This document shows, in pieces, positions 15,626-20,235 of a stretch of DNA of 64,000 bases; the stretch's first letter is position 1, and each line of letters opens with the position of its first letter. The translations under genes and the position numbers were made by a program. Under the pieces are notes generated by a model that was given only the letters and a program-made list of their open reading frames with translations, was not told where the DNA came from and did not search any database. The stretch is from NCBI GenBank assembly GCA_016218665.1, contig JACRDI010000042.1, positions 1 to 64,000 on the forward strand, given 5' to 3'. This stretch comes from Desulfovibrio sp. Its GTDB lineage: Bacteria; Desulfobacterota; Desulfovibrionia; Desulfovibrionales; Desulfovibrionaceae.

Positions 15626-17590
15626 CTAGAGCTCCACCTGGGTGCCCAGCTCCACCACGCGTCCCGGCGGGATGCCGAAGAAGGTGGTGGCGTTCCAGGC
15701 GTTGCGCGACATGAAGGCGAAGAGGCTCTTGCGCCAGCGCATGATGCGCGAGGGCCCCGTGGTGAGCAGGCTTTCGCGTCCCAGGAAGAAGCTGGTGGTC
15801 TGCATGTCCAGCAGCAGGCCGTGGGGGCGCGCCAGGCGCATGATCTCCGGCACCTTCGGGGTCTGCATGAAGCCGTAGCGGGCGATGACCCGGAAGAACC
15901 CGTGGCCAAGGCTGGTCACGGTGAGGCGCTCCTTGGCCGGAACGAAGGGCGTGTCGGTGGAGATGATGGACAGGAGCAGCACCTGCTCGTGCAGCACCTT
16001 GCTGTGCTTGTAGTAGTGCAGCAGGGTGATGGGCGTGCCCGTGGGCGAGACGGACATGAACACCCCCGTGCCGCTGATGCGCACCGGGGGCTTGCCCGCC
16101 ACCAGGCTGTTCAGGAACAGGTCCAGCGGCAGGCCCATGGAGCGGAACTGCTCGCCGATGGCGGCCTTGCCGTCGCGCCAGGTGGCCATGGCCACCATGA
16201 TGAGGGCGGCCACGGTGAGGGTGAACCAGCCGCCGTCCAGGATCTTGAGCAGGTTGGAGCCCAGGTAGGCCACGTCGAACACCAGGAACAGGGCGATGAG
16301 CGGGGCGGTCTTCCACATGGGCCAGCGCCACAGGGTGTGCACCACGTAGAAGAAGATCACCGAGGTGATGGCCATGGTGGCGGTGACGGCGATGCCGTAG
16401 GCCCCGGCCAGGCCGCTGGAGCTCTTGAAGGCCAGCACCAGGCCGATGCAGGCCACCATCATGGCATTGTTCACGCCGGGCAGGTAGATCTGGCCCTTGG
16501 TCTCGGCGCTGGTGTTGATGATGCGGATGCGCGGGCAGTAGCCCAGCTGCACCGCCTGCTGCGTCAGGGAGTACACGCCGGAGATCATGGCCTGGGAGGC
16601 GATGACCGTGGCCATGGTGGCCAGGGCGACCATGGGGTAGAGCAGCGCCTCCGGCACGAGGCCGAAGAAGGGGTTGAAGGCCATGTCCGGCCGGGCGAGC
16701 AGCAGCGCGCCCTGGCCGAAGTAGTTGAGCAGCAGCGCCGGCAGCACCATGGCGTACCACGACAGCCGGATGGGCCTGCGGCCGAAGTGGCCCATGTCGG
16801 CGTAGAGGGCCTCGCCGCCGGTGATGCTCAGGACCACCGAGCCCAGCACCACCAGACCGTGCATCTGGTTCTCGATGAAGAAGCGCACGGCGTAGGCCGG
16901 GTTCACCGCGGCCAGGATGCCCGGCTGCTGGGCGATGGACACCGCGCCCAGCGCGGCGATGACCGCGAACCAGACGACCATGAGCGGGCCGAAGACCTTG
17001 CCGATGCGCTCGGTGCCGTGCTTCTGCATCATGAACAGCGCCATGAGGGTGAGGCAGGTGGCGGGCAGGATGAAGGGCTCGGCCGCGTTGGTGGCCACGT
17101 TCAGGCCCTCCATGGCCGAGAGCACGGAGATGGCCGGGGTGATGATGCCGTCGCCGTAGAGCAGGGCCGCGCCGAACAGCGCCGCGCTGATGAGCAGGGC
17201 GTGGCTCTTCTTGCCCGTGCCCTCCACTGAGGACTTCACCAGGGCCAGCAGGGCGAAGATGCCGCCCTCGCCCTTGTTGTCGGCCCGCATGACGAACATG
17301 ACGTACTTGAGGCTGACCACGATGATGAGCGACCAGACGATGAGCGAGAGCACGCCCATGACGTTCACCGTGTTGAGGGCGATGGCGTGGGGGCCGTGGA
17401 AGCATTCCTTGACGGCGTAGAGGGGGCTGGTGCCGATGTCGCCGTAGACGACGCCGAGCGCGGCCAGGGCCAGGGCGAGGTTGCGCCCCTGGGCCTGGTG
17501 GCCGCCTTCGCCGTTTTCCGGGTGGGCCGGCTGGGGGCCGGGAGCGGGCGCTTCATCGGCCCGCGTGGCGGCGGTGGGCGTTTCGGACAT
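15626..17590 (-). CDS. kup: Kup-family low-affinity potassium uptake protein
   Basis: A 654-residue K+:H+ symporter of the KUP/HAK family. The N terminus carries the family signature GVVYGDIGTSPLYAVKECF (about residues 46-64), followed by about twelve membrane helices. A cytoplasmic C-terminal region of about 200 residues ends in FFGIPPGRVVELGTQVEL. The ATG at 17588-17590 is preceded by GGAGGT (17599-17604) with 8-base spacing, which fixes the start; the open frame upstream is the riboswitch region. Expression is probably controlled by the c-di-AMP riboswitch at 17636-17775, and the kimA-like transporter lies directly upstream. Confidence 0.95.
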   Translation of the reverse strand: MSETPTAATRADEAPAPGPQPAHPENGEGGHQAQGRNLALALAALGVVYGDIGTSPLYAVKECFHGPHAIALNTVNVMGVLSLIVWSLIIVVSLKYVMFVMRADNKGEGGIFALLALVKSSVEGTGKKSHALLISAALFGAALLYGDGIITPAISVLSAMEGLNVATNAAEPFILPATCLTLMALFMMQKHGTERIGKVFGPLMVVWFAVIAALGAVSIAQQPGILAAVNPAYAVRFFIENQMHGLVVLGSVVLSITGGEALYADMGHFGRRPIRLSWYAMVLPALLLNYFGQGALLLARPDMAFNPFFGLVPEALLYPMVALATMATVIASQAMISGVYSLTQQAVQLGYCPRIRIINTSAETKGQIYLPGVNNAMMVACIGLVLAFKSSSGLAGAYGIAVTATMAITSVIFFYVVHTLWRWPMWKTAPLIALFLVFDVAYLGSNLLKILDGGWFTLTVAALIMVAMATWRDGKAAIGEQFRSMGLPLDLFLNSLVAGKPPVRISGTGVFMSVSPTGTPITLLHYYKHSKVLHEQVLLLSIISTDTPFVPAKERLTVTSLGHGFFRVIARYGFMQTPKVPEIMRLARPHGLLLDMQTTSFFLGRESLLTTGPSRIMRWRKSLFAFMSRNAWNATTFFGIPPGRVVELGTQVEL

Positions 17591-17596
17591 GGGATG

Positions 17597-17644
17597 AAAC
17601 CTCCAATTGTGCACGCTGGGATAGGCCCCGGACGCCGGAGGTCT
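17597..17644 (-). promoter_or_regulatory. Shine-Dalgarno-sequestering hairpin of the kup riboswitch
   Basis: On the minus strand AGACCTCC (17637-17644), at the 3' end of the aptamer, can pair with GGAGGTTT (17597-17604), which contains the kup ribosome-binding site. The pairing has 8 positions, one of them G-U. This is the expected layout of a translational expression platform. Confidence 0.6.
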
Positions 17645-17775
17645 TTCCCTTTCGACGCCTGCGAGGTTAGCTGACGGGCTCGGGCCGAAAGGTGCCCTAC
17701 GCCGTGTTGACGGCGATGCGCCCCAGAGGGATGCGGGTCCCCCGCTCCCGGGCTGCGGCCCGGGACTTGGCGACG
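17636..17775 (-). promoter_or_regulatory. c-di-AMP riboswitch (ydaO/yuaA type) of kup
   Basis: The minus strand carries the conserved elements AGCGGGGGACCC, TGGGGCGCATC and GAGCCCGTCAGCTAACCTCG followed by CAGGCGTCGAAAGG, in ydaO-leader order. Compared with the kimA copy, the variable hairpins differ in sequence but keep pairing (CGCCGT/ACGGCG here against CGCTC/GAGCG there; GGGC/GCCC against GGAC/GTCC). Such compensatory change supports a folded RNA. ydaO RNAs are known OFF switches for K+ and osmolyte transport genes when c-di-AMP is high. Confidence 0.88.
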
Positions 17776-17778
17776 TTT

Positions 17779-17808
17779 TCTTTACCCGGCGTGCAAAGAC
17801 GGTGTCAA
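17779..17808 (-). promoter_or_regulatory. putative promoter of the kup riboswitch transcript
   Basis: Minus-strand TTGACA (17803-17808) and TAAAGA (17779-17784) are separated by 18 bases and would start transcription just before the aptamer. The kimA leader has the same arrangement. Confidence 0.6.
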
Positions 17809-17929: not shown

Positions 17930-19918
17930 CTACAGGCGGATGGGCATGATGACGAAGGCCACCCCCTGCCGGTACAGCTGGCGTTGCACGGCGAAGACGA
18001 TGTGGTTGTGCAGCACGCGGGTGAAGAAGGTGTCGTCCGGGAACACCAGCTGCCCGCCGAAGAACACGGCCCTGGGGAAGCGCCGGCGCAGCTCCGGGGT
18101 CAGCTTCACCACCTCCTCAACCACGTCCACGCCGACGGAACTGACCCCCTCGGCATAGACGCCGCGCTCGCGCATGAAGTTCACATAGCGGTCCAGGTCG
18201 GCCTGGATGTGGGTCTTCAGGGCCTCCAGCTCCTCGGCCCCCTTGAACACGCCCGCGTCCACCATGCCCACCTGCACGAAGACGAAGTTGCGGAACTCTC
18301 CGCTGAACATGCGCTGGATGCCGAGCAGCGTGTGCATGCCCAGGCCGTTGTAGCCGTTCACCAGCAGCACCGCGGTCTTGGCGCCGGGATCGCAGGCGTC
18401 GGCGTCGCACAGGGTCGCCTCCGGCAGCAGGGGCGTGGTGTCGGCCTCGGCCACGGGGATGAGGGCGTCGAGCTTCTTGAGCATGCCCCAGGTCTGGTCG
18501 TAGTGGCGGCGGATGTACAGGGCCAGGGCGGCCACGGCTCCGGTGACGAGCAGGGTGGCCCAGCCGCCCTCGAAGAACTTGATGAAGGTGACCGTGACCA
18601 GGATGAAGGAGCAGAGCACCAGGCCCAGGCCGTTCAGCAGCAGGCCCTTCAGGCGGTGGGGTTCGGCCTTCTCCGCACCCAGCCAGTGGCGCACCATGCC
18701 CAGCTGCGAAAGCACGAAGGTGATGAACACGTTGATGGAGTAGAGCACGATCAGGAGCTCCACCGAGCCGTGGGAGAGGACCATGAGCAGGACCGAGGCC
18801 CCGCCCATGATGAGGATGCCCTTCTGGGTCACCAGCCGGTCGGAGAGCATGGCGAAGCGCGTGGGGAACCAGCGGTCCATGGCCATGTTGGCCAGAACGC
18901 GCGGCCCGTCCAGAAAGCCCGTCTGCGCGGCCACGAAGAGGATGGCCGCCTCGGACAAAAGCGTCACCAGCACGAAGCCCTGGCCCGGCGCGCCCCAGTT
19001 CTGGGCGATGGCCTCAAAAAGCACGGCGTTCAGCGTCTTGCCCTTCATCTCGCGCACGCCGTAGAGGATGAAGGCCAGCACCAGGCCCATGACCGTGACC
19101 GACAGGGACACGGCCATGTAGGTCATGGTGCGCTTGCCGGTCTGCACCTTGGGCTCGCGCAGGATGGCCAGGCCGTTGGACACCGCCTCCAGGCCGGTGT
19201 ACGTGCCCGCGCCCATGCTGTAGGCGCGCAGCACAAGCAGGAACATGCCCGCCAGGCCCAGCTGGCTTTGGGCCGCGCTCACGTCGGCGCTGGTGCGCTC
19301 GATGACCGCAGGCAGGTTCGGCAGGTGGGAGAGCAGGCTGTAGCCGATGGCGAAGGCGTGGGTGAGCACGAAGACCATGAAGATGGGCACCAGCGCGGTG
19401 ACGGATTCCTTCACCCCGCGCAGGTTGAGCACGATGAGCAGCAGCACGCCCAGCACCGCGAAGGGGAGCTTCCACGCCTCCCAGGCCGGCGGAAGGAAGC
19501 TGAACAGGGCGTCCGCCCCGCTGGCCACGGAGAGGGTGATGGTGAGCACGTAGTCCACCAGGAGCGCGCAGCCAGAGACCATGCCGAGCTTTGGCGAGAG
19601 CAGCTTGCTGGCCACCACGTAGCCGCCGCCGCCCGAGGGGAAGAGCTCGATGATCTGCGAGTAGCTGGCGCTGATGACGAAGATGGTGAGCACCGAGGCC
19701 AGGCCCACGAAAAGCGCCAGGAAGGTGTGGCTGCCCAAAGCCAGGAAGGCCTCCGCCGGGCCGTAGCAGGAGGAGGACAGGCCGTCGGAGCCGAGGCCCA
19801 CCCAGGCGAAGAAGGCGATGAGCGAGAGGTTGTGGAAGATGGACCGGTCTTCCACGTTCAAGGACTTGCCAAAGAGGAGTTCCTTGGCCTTGCGGCCAAG
19901 GGGGGTGCGCGGCGTCAT
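17930..19918 (-). CDS. kimA: KimA-like APC-family potassium importer
   Basis: A 662-residue transporter with about twelve hydrophobic segments of the APC superfamily, including GLGSDGLSSSCYGPAEAFLALG and PSGGGGYVVASKLLSPKLG near the N terminus. A roughly 190-residue soluble C-terminal domain follows. KimA of Bacillus subtilis (formerly YdaO) has this architecture, imports K+ and is controlled by the ydaO c-di-AMP riboswitch. The riboswitch upstream here favours the same function over amino-acid transport. The ATG at 19916-19918 has GGGAGG (19925-19930) 6 bases upstream. That site overlaps the stop codon of the leader ORF at 19930-20019. Confidence 0.85.
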   Translation of the reverse strand: MTPRTPLGRKAKELLFGKSLNVEDRSIFHNLSLIAFFAWVGLGSDGLSSSCYGPAEAFLALGSHTFLALFVGLASVLTIFVISASYSQIIELFPSGGGGYVVASKLLSPKLGMVSGCALLVDYVLTITLSVASGADALFSFLPPAWEAWKLPFAVLGVLLLIVLNLRGVKESVTALVPIFMVFVLTHAFAIGYSLLSHLPNLPAVIERTSADVSAAQSQLGLAGMFLLVLRAYSMGAGTYTGLEAVSNGLAILREPKVQTGKRTMTYMAVSLSVTVMGLVLAFILYGVREMKGKTLNAVLFEAIAQNWGAPGQGFVLVTLLSEAAILFVAAQTGFLDGPRVLANMAMDRWFPTRFAMLSDRLVTQKGILIMGGASVLLMVLSHGSVELLIVLYSINVFITFVLSQLGMVRHWLGAEKAEPHRLKGLLLNGLGLVLCSFILVTVTFIKFFEGGWATLLVTGAVAALALYIRRHYDQTWGMLKKLDALIPVAEADTTPLLPEATLCDADACDPGAKTAVLLVNGYNGLGMHTLLGIQRMFSGEFRNFVFVQVGMVDAGVFKGAEELEALKTHIQADLDRYVNFMRERGVYAEGVSSVGVDVVEEVVKLTPELRRRFPRAVFFGGQLVFPDDTFFTRVLHNHIVFAVQRQLYRQGVAFVIMPIRL

Positions 19919-19929
19919 GGCGGGCCTCC

Positions 19930-20019
19930 CTAGCGGGCGGCCGCGCACGCGCGGCGGAAACGGGACGCACTGGCGGAAAATGGCCGCAACGCGGCCAACG
20001 GGCAAAGGACGGCGGGCAT
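19930..20019 (-). CDS. 29-codon leader ORF between riboswitch and kimA
   Basis: An ATG (20017-20019) lies 6 bases after GGAGGT (20026-20031) and opens a 29-codon frame ending in TAG (19930-19932). The G of TAG is the first base of the kimA Shine-Dalgarno GGGAGG, and the kimA ATG follows 12 to 14 bases after the stop. The peptide starts MPAVLCPLAALRPF and ends RRACAAAR; it is Ala/Arg-rich and resembles no known protein, so its sequence may be unimportant. The spacing suggests translational coupling: ribosomes admitted by the riboswitch would terminate on the kimA ribosome-binding site. It is distinct in frame from any extended kimA start. Confidence 0.6.
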   Translation of the reverse strand: MPAVLCPLAALRPFSASASRFRRACAAAR

Positions 20020-20025
20020 GAAAAT

Positions 20026-20071
20026 ACCTCCGGCATAATAGGTTTCGGGGGAGGCCCCGAATGCCGGAGGT
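20026..20071 (-). promoter_or_regulatory. Shine-Dalgarno-sequestering hairpin of the kimA leader
   Basis: ACCTCCGGCAT (20061-20071, minus strand) is perfectly complementary over 11 bp to ATGCCGGAGGT (20026-20036), which contains the leader-ORF ribosome-binding site. A second perfect 6-bp hairpin (TCGGGG/CCCCGA, 20045-20060) nests inside the loop and abuts the outer stem. Formation of the outer stem would block translation initiation at 20019. Confidence 0.75.
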
Positions 20072-20200
20072 CTTCCCCTTTCGACGCCTGCGAGGTTAGC
20101 TGACGGGCTCGGACCGAAAGGTGTCCTACGCTCTTTCGAGCGATGCGCCCCAAGGGATGTGGGTCCCCCGCTCCCGGGAAACCTTCCCGGGATTCGGCAA
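20062..20200 (-). promoter_or_regulatory. c-di-AMP riboswitch (ydaO/yuaA type) of kimA
   Basis: The minus strand shows GAATCCCGGG...CCCGGGAGCGGGGGACCC, then TTGGGGCGCATC, then GAGCCCGTCAGCTAACCTCG and CAGGCGTCGAAAGG. This is the ydaO/yuaA leader signature and is nearly identical in its invariant parts to the kup copy, with compensatory changes in the stems. Its 3' end runs into the ACCTCCGGCAT arm of the sequestering hairpin. Confidence 0.9.
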
Positions 20201-20205
20201 CGCGA

Positions 20206-20235
20206 TACTTACGCCCAGCGTAGCGGACGTGTCAA
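20206..20235 (-). promoter_or_regulatory. putative promoter of the kimA riboswitch transcript
   Basis: Minus-strand TTGACA (20230-20235) and TAAGTA (20206-20211) are separated by 18 bases and lie immediately before the aptamer, matching the kup leader promoter. Confidence 0.6.

Follow-up and report, generated by a model that had tools for sequence, protein, structure and literature searches.

A c-di-AMP riboswitch in Desulfovibrio sp. probably controls a gene for a KimA-type potassium importer at one remove, through a short upstream open reading frame (uORF) whose stop codon overlaps the Shine-Dalgarno (SD) sequence of the gene. Because the uORF ends where the ribosomes of kimA must begin, it probably relays the signal of the riboswitch, and we think it likely that the element is a translational OFF switch from which kimA is reached by termination-reinitiation. 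The features of the window, by which we mean the whole 64,000-nucleotide stretch analyzed, are collected in Table 1.

Table 1. Features of the kimA and kup leaders, in window coordinates
Feature	Position	Strand	Evidence
c-di-AMP (ydaO/yuaA) riboswitch aptamer before kimA	20070..20209	-	Rfam RF00379, 93.3 bits, E 1.1e-20, model 1-134 of 134
Second c-di-AMP aptamer, before kup	17642..17782	-	RF00379, 87.8 bits
kimA-type potassium importer, 662 aa, ATG 19918	17930..19918	-	Pfam AA_permease_2, E 7.1e-19
kup potassium transporter, ATG 17590	15626..17590	-	K_trans 617 bits; TIGR00794 564.3 (cut-off 539.6)
Aptamer loop CCUUUCG, predicted pseudoknot 5' strand	20115..20121	-	7/7 pairs with 20083-20077
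Post-P1 tail CGAAAGG, predicted pseudoknot 3' strand	20077..20083	-	overlaps GGGGA arm 20078-20074
Possible anti-sequestering (ON) hairpin	20048..20078	-	GGGGA 20078-20074 / UCCCC 20052-20048; anti-SD / CGGGG 20059-20055
Anti-Shine-Dalgarno arm ACCUCCGGCAU	20061..20071	-	11-bp stem partner; helix 96.4% paired over 18 copies
Sequestered arm AUGCCGGAGGU with uORF Shine-Dalgarno GGAGG	20026..20036	-	sequence, fold, 18-copy alignment
Putative relay uORF, 29 codons, MPAVLCPLAALRPFSASASRFRRACAAAR, stop	19930..20019	-	ORF translation; same-place uORF in 10/10 genus kimA leaders
uORF stop TAG (19932-19930) overlapping kimA SD GGGAGG (19930-19925)	19925..19932	-	sequence
Small hairpin GGCCG-(5)-CGGCC in uORF start	19982..19996	-	arms identical in 10/10 kimA uORFs

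Results

Aptamers and potassium transporter genes

The aptamer before kimA belongs to the c-di-AMP class, its full-length match lying far above the Rfam gathering cut-off of 38 bits for RF00379, and binding of the ligand is predicted. Two diadenylate cyclase (DAC) matches occur in the source genome, so c-di-AMP can probably be made there. The product of the gene behind this aptamer is one that we take to be KimA, after the transporter class linked to the ydaO riboswitch; searched against NCBIfam, the protein was assigned to no family. The kup protein scores below the model cut-off of NF008015. RF00379 is present in all 15 genus genomes scanned, and in 41 of 288 family genomes and 46 of 348 order genomes under filters stricter than those of the genus scan; a class-level survey of 348 genomes gave the same matches as the order scan.

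A hairpin over the ribosome-binding site of the uORF

The original prediction placed an 11-bp anti-SD stem over the ribosome-binding site of a 29-codon ORF and had the riboswitch hairpin aim at this leader ORF. Sequence and fold agree with those coordinates and with that target: the two arms behind the aptamer pair perfectly, GGAGG lies in the 3' arm, 7 nt upstream of the uORF ATG at 20019, and the 66-nt hairpin stretch folds at -31.5 kcal/mol (z -4.8), a stability equaled in 0 of 200 shuffles. The sharing of the G of TAG with the kimA SD, also predicted, was confirmed in the sequence; this G (19930) is the first base of GGGAGG, and the kimA ATG occupies bases 12-14 past the stop.

That the hairpin can mask the uORF SD is indicated by this stable fold, by its retention in 18 copies and by some covariation, with a mixed result from a control in which the 3' partners were slid. 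Of the 25 genus copies, 18 entered the alignment (A3), 10 from kimA and 8 from kup; the other seven, all kup rows (L002, L006, L020, L025, L027, L028 and L029), were omitted, L025 for masking and the rest for a divergent start or hairpin. Over these 18 copies, 3 of the 11 pairs of the SD helix have changed on both sides. When the SD stem, the inner stem and the uORF stem were taken jointly, 94.1% of cells were paired, all both-side changes fell in the SD stem, and five structure-wide measures were reached by 0, 2, 0, 12 and 0 of 500 shuffles. A shift of +3 in the 3' partners gave a covariation score of 0.089 versus 0.065 for the SD structure and an equal number of cells with both-side changes (4), with 46% versus 94% of cells paired.

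A smaller stem, GGCCG/CGGCC, lies in the start of the uORF itself. Its arms are constant in the ten kimA uORFs, and its 5-nt loop varies, altering amino acids; with the 8 kup copies added, 92.2% of cells are paired, with no covariation. The stem begins at nt 24 of the window uORF and at nt 18 in L008, L010, L013, L016, L017, L018, L019, L021 and L022.

Conservation and placement of the stop codon

Within the genus, kimA was found in 10 of 15 genomes, several of which are incomplete, and aptamer, hairpin and uORF are present at all ten genes. Conservation of the uORF, with its stop next to the kimA SD, had been proposed as a check on the original prediction, and both were found to be kept at each of the ten. 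The uORFs are 29-37 codons long. Relative to the kimA ATG, every stop lies between -4 and +14 nt; in nine copies it stands 9-14 nt ahead of the ATG, and in the tenth (G012) stop and start overlap as ATGA. Relative to kimA, the uORF occurs at all three frame offsets over the ten copies (2, 1, 0, 2, 1, 0, 0, 2, 2, 0), with at least five changes on a kimA tree that has strong support on only 2 of its 10 inner branches. For the other two frames, 2 of 10 and 0 of 10 copies have their first stop within those distances of the ATG. These distances take the kimA start as the ATG nearest to the beginning of the aligned protein; in two of the ten, L001 and L013, kimA might instead start at a GTG further upstream in the same frame.

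When the middle of the leader was shuffled with dinucleotides kept, the chance per genome came to 0.03-0.12 for eight of the ten; for the other two (L001 and L019) it was 0.66-0.80, because the TGA within the kimA start ATGA is already in the uORF frame. A more cautious null, in which the last 24 nt with SD and stop were kept and the frame was random, gave 0.26-0.59 per genome, with a product of 2.2e-5 for the ten taken as independent and 2e-3 counting only six lineages. Together, the two nulls make it likely, though not certain, that the position of the stop codon is under selection, whatever the frame.

The encoded peptide behaves differently from the position. The first ~11 codons are alike, reading MPAVHLAVLRP or close to it in most copies, and the later residues and lengths differ. 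Over codons 2-11 in 9 of the 10 rows (L001, which has an insertion, was omitted, and the codons after 11 are unaligned), the first, second and third codon positions are 85, 78 and 77% identical, with no clear coding signature and no excess of silent changes of the kind expected from purifying selection on the peptide. Conservation at the peptide level was thus looked for and not found. Given the weak codon signature and the varied lengths and letters, the position of the uORF seems to be kept and its product not.

Leaders of kup

In the kup leader of the window, the matching arm ACCUCC (17642-17637) has kup's own SD (17604-17599) as its potential partner, and there is no separate ORF; the fold over this SD is no better than those of shuffled sequences (z -0.8; 41 of 200). 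The original prediction, which had the kup copy lack such an ORF, is thus right within the window, but in several relatives kup itself opens with uORF-like codons. The genus has 15 kup copies, of which one has a masked start and 14 are readable. By eye, the start resembles that of the uORF closely in four (L009, L015, L023 and L024), more loosely in five (L005, L011, L012, L014 and L029) and not at all in five, the window's own included. Where they are alike, the uORF-like codons form an in-frame N-terminal extension of kup. This likeness delimits a shared unit of aptamer, hairpin, SD, ATG and ~11 codons, which, judged by sequence, extends the N-terminus in those kup genes and in kimA ends with a stop at the SD of that gene. 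One relative (G014, locus L139) carries three c-di-AMP aptamers, one before kimA and two before kup, one of the three diverged (54.5 bits). Another (G010, loci L005 and L020) carries two kup-linked aptamers and has no kimA match.

Pseudoknot and alternative hairpin

Structures of ydaO riboswitches contain a pseudoknot, according to the available part of one source (PMC5393176). In this analysis we assigned its predicted strands to the CCUUUCG loop and the CGAAAGG tail. With G-U pairs allowed and the best offset within the loop taken, loop and tail form 7 of 7 pairs in 53 of the 55 aptamers parsed across the order and 6 of 7 in the other two; the count omits L004 and L007, which are the same places as L136 and L137, and L027, L028 and L029 were unparsed. 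Shuffled loops form 7 pairs in 1.1% of cases and at least 6 in 16%. Over 14 distinct loop/tail combinations, strands with their own partners form 6.14 Watson-Crick pairs, versus 5.39 when partners are swapped.

The tail overlaps GGGGA, so that the pseudoknot, and with it ligand binding, would exclude the candidate ON hairpin, which predicts an OFF switch. Folding the short piece alone gives the ON hairpin as the optimum in all 18 genus copies (-13.4 to -18.1 kcal/mol). Once the aptamer is added, the complete hairpin remains optimal in 5 of 10 kimA copies (L016, L017, L018, L019 and L022), the window's own not among them. It shows no covariation, 500 of 500 shuffles doing equally on most measures. 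In the ten kimA copies, the SD hairpin has -25 to -30 kcal/mol versus -16 to -17 for the candidate ON hairpin, so the decision between them would have to fall during transcription. Both the fuller-leader folds and the result of sliding the partners count against the ON model. A ligand-free pairing of the anti-SD arm with the 3' strand of P1 found no support in truncated leaders and was rejected; there, the inner anti-SD bases pair mainly with the following CGGGG in 9 of 10 copies, and in the window partly with the aptamer and the upstream GGGG.

Accessibility of the kimA start

The kimA gene has an SD of its own. Opening its start region costs 10-19 kcal/mol, against an average of 11.0 for 47 other starts (p 0.004, or 0.012 with GC matched), in a control for which 7 of 8 sources are loci fetched for kimA, the window also carries kimA, and kimA was kept in. 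Genes for this control, as for the C-skew control below, were identified by a simple rule on codon positions instead of a gene finder. Set against shuffled flanks, opening is no costlier (z -0.9 to +1.5); a structure evolved specifically to cover the start of kimA was looked for, and nothing beyond composition was found. This moderate occlusion, as modeled, is compatible with a dependence of kimA on upstream translation.

Discussion

In the mechanism that we propose, c-di-AMP binding would let the aptamer pseudoknot hold the tail CGAAAGG, and the anti-SD arm would pair with the GGAGG of the uORF, blocking the start of the 29-codon ORF. In the ligand-free state, tail and anti-SD arm would pair elsewhere, GGGGA with UCCCC and anti-SD with CGGGG being the candidates, which would leave the uORF SD open. 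Ribosomes would then translate the uORF; at its stop, which adjoins the kimA SD or shares bases with it, they would terminate and start anew on kimA. What the genomes would keep is a frame ending on kimA, with the peptide as a by-product. From the observed anatomy, conservation and stop placement we infer the direction and details of the switch, the translation of the uORF and the dependence of kimA upon it.

Several other explanations could apply to the same leader. The SD hairpin might be mainly an intrinsic terminator, with c-di-AMP acting on transcription and the uORF being incidental read-through sequence. Its GC-rich 11-bp stem is followed by UAUUUUCAU (UAUUUUC), a run of at least four U stands behind the stem in 9 of 10 kimA copies, and, by eye, 9 of 11 kimA leaders outside the order combine a stem with a U run. 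However, a terminator scan left the site unlisted, the U run is absent from kimA L021 and from kup L005, L012 and L024, the spacing from SD to ATG is kept in the copies, and the placement of stops in three frames would go unexplained; we consider this reading unlikely. A related idea, which we find rather improbable, is that untranslated, C-rich uORF RNA loads Rho and transcription ends before kimA, the riboswitch gating the shield that translation provides and reinitiation being secondary. The uORFs of the genus are indeed C-rich and A-poor (C-skew 0.11-0.31, mean 0.21, versus 0.05 in 479 coding windows), as are 14 uORFs of other genera in their C-skew (0.09-0.35); such a shield would also suit genera in which the uORF ends far from its target, and the available part of the report on the pe20 Mbox offers a precedent for Rho (PMC12810186). 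Yet the first 105 nt of kimA are equally C-rich (mean 0.23), so C-richness is no property of the uORF in this genus and was discarded as a mark of Rho, and a shield does not require a stop that abuts the kimA SD.

Two further accounts concern the origin or product of the uORF. If kimA simply started from its own SD, the uORF could be a decaying copy of the kup 5'-end left by duplication of the riboswitch. That account draws on the resemblance of the ~11 first codons to the kup start in some of the same genomes, and the SD at kimA suits it, but a frame in decay should hardly keep its stop at that SD across at least five frame switches, and we think it very unlikely. That the peptide itself serves as a regulator or stalling leader peptide is suggested by the N-terminal stretch common to most copies; we regard it as extremely unlikely, however, given the variation in length and later residues, the silent-change result over codons 2-11, and the fact that the invariant part of the uORF is the stem, whose loop changes amino acids.

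To our knowledge, no relay ORF is known at the ydaO/kimA riboswitch of B. subtilis. The relay layout is known in principle from other riboswitch classes. According to the available part of one report, the ppe2 B12 riboswitch of M. tuberculosis controls a uORF, and reporters and tagging show that PPE2 is made mainly by termination-reinitiation (PMC11260477). The uPPE2-ppe2 arrangement resembles the relay that we propose for kimA from sequence alone: as described in that part of the report, the SD covered by the riboswitch belongs to a short uORF that is translated, reinitiation takes place at the uORF end, and the switch is OFF (PMC11260477). It differs in its B12 class and its phylum, in contrast to the c-di-AMP riboswitch here; in its AUGA overlap, whereas in 9 of 10 kimA copies the stop lies beside a separate purine-rich SD-like stretch and in one forms ATGA; and in that ppe2, on the same partial account, is without an obvious SD of its own, unlike kimA (PMC11260477). 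The available part of a second M. tuberculosis report has the pe20 Mbox control the uORF Rv1805A, with Rho; it likewise describes a translational platform that directly controls a uORF ahead of an operon, and differs in riboswitch class, in Rho-dependent termination and in a highly conserved uORF (PMC12810186). For c-di-AMP itself, the riboswitch at nlpC of C. glutamicum is also of ydaO type and likely acts on translation, but on the gene itself, no uORF being named in the available part of the source; B. subtilis ydaO/kimA shares aptamer class and type of target gene with our system, but works there by a transcription terminator (PMC9960051).

Among the literature matches listed, which were available in part and whose scope excluded subscription papers and preprints, none describes a c-di-AMP riboswitch with an upstream ORF, or one in Desulfovibrio. 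The original prediction had called the layout unfamiliar; this holds for the c-di-AMP class among those matches, but a relay from riboswitch to uORF has been published for ppe2 (PMC11260477) and pe20 (PMC12810186), as far as the available parts of both reports go. With the kimA leaders, the relay reported from M. tuberculosis would reach a further ligand, c-di-AMP, and, in sulfate reducers, a gene for potassium import; these leaders also add comparative evidence of a stop kept at the downstream SD in any frame. If the relay is real, the targets of riboswitches are misassigned wherever a short first ORF goes unannotated, and a search rule follows, namely that the first stop of a switch-gated short frame should lie within ~15 nt of the next start.

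In a broader reading, which we advance tentatively and lean against, the c-di-AMP platform of these bacteria would serve as a portable cassette for initiation, made up of hairpin, SD, ATG, ~11 codons and the constant stem and extending into the coding region. Its junction with the target would take one of two forms: in-frame fusion, exemplified by several kup genes of this genus, or, for kimA, closure by a stop placed at the SD of the following gene. Relay ORFs would then be a habit of the c-di-AMP riboswitches of the order, at kimA in two or three genera and at the complex I (nuo) operon in another, and the switch could take a new target without redesign of the platform.

Comparison of the genus with other genera finds the tight relay in this genus only and a looser uORF elsewhere in the order. 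At kimA outside the genus, a uORF lies 55-147 nt away in 9 copies and none was seen in 5. All eight kimA leaders of the genus-level group g51 (L046, L035, L037, L042, L129, L130, L131 and L132) have a 35-40-codon uORF that follows immediately on the switch-proximal SD and stops 55-147 nt short of kimA; the encoded peptides look unlike one another. In three g51 genomes (G289, G293 and G294), another ATG directly on the SD opens a frame continuous with kimA. The leader of S. alcoholivorans (Solidesulfovibrio, L058) has the same uORF as G282 of g51, and G071 has a 29-codon uORF 97 nt ahead of kimA. No SD-led ORF ending ahead of kimA was found in G023, G188 and three g36 genomes. Among 80 named kimA loci there were 26 aptamer matches, 11 of these loci being outside the order; none of the 11 has a comparable uORF, and two of those outside the order (L104 and L113) have frames of 19 and 26 codons, with weak SD-like matches, that run through the stem.

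We know of no link between c-di-AMP and complex I. In g32, an aptamer stands before nuoA, with a 49-codon uORF (63 codons in G316, locus L142) lying 136-306 nt ahead of nuoA in the five copies examined (L136, L137, L140, L141 and L142), and in G046 (L136) the genes behind the aptamer are complex I subunits by Pfam. Four of the five uORFs end alike in YG.ID.PSPPL, and by eye those four have a stem and U run before the uORF. G316 carries a second c-di-AMP aptamer (L143, G316:C8:22500-28500), ~17 kb from the nuo-linked one.
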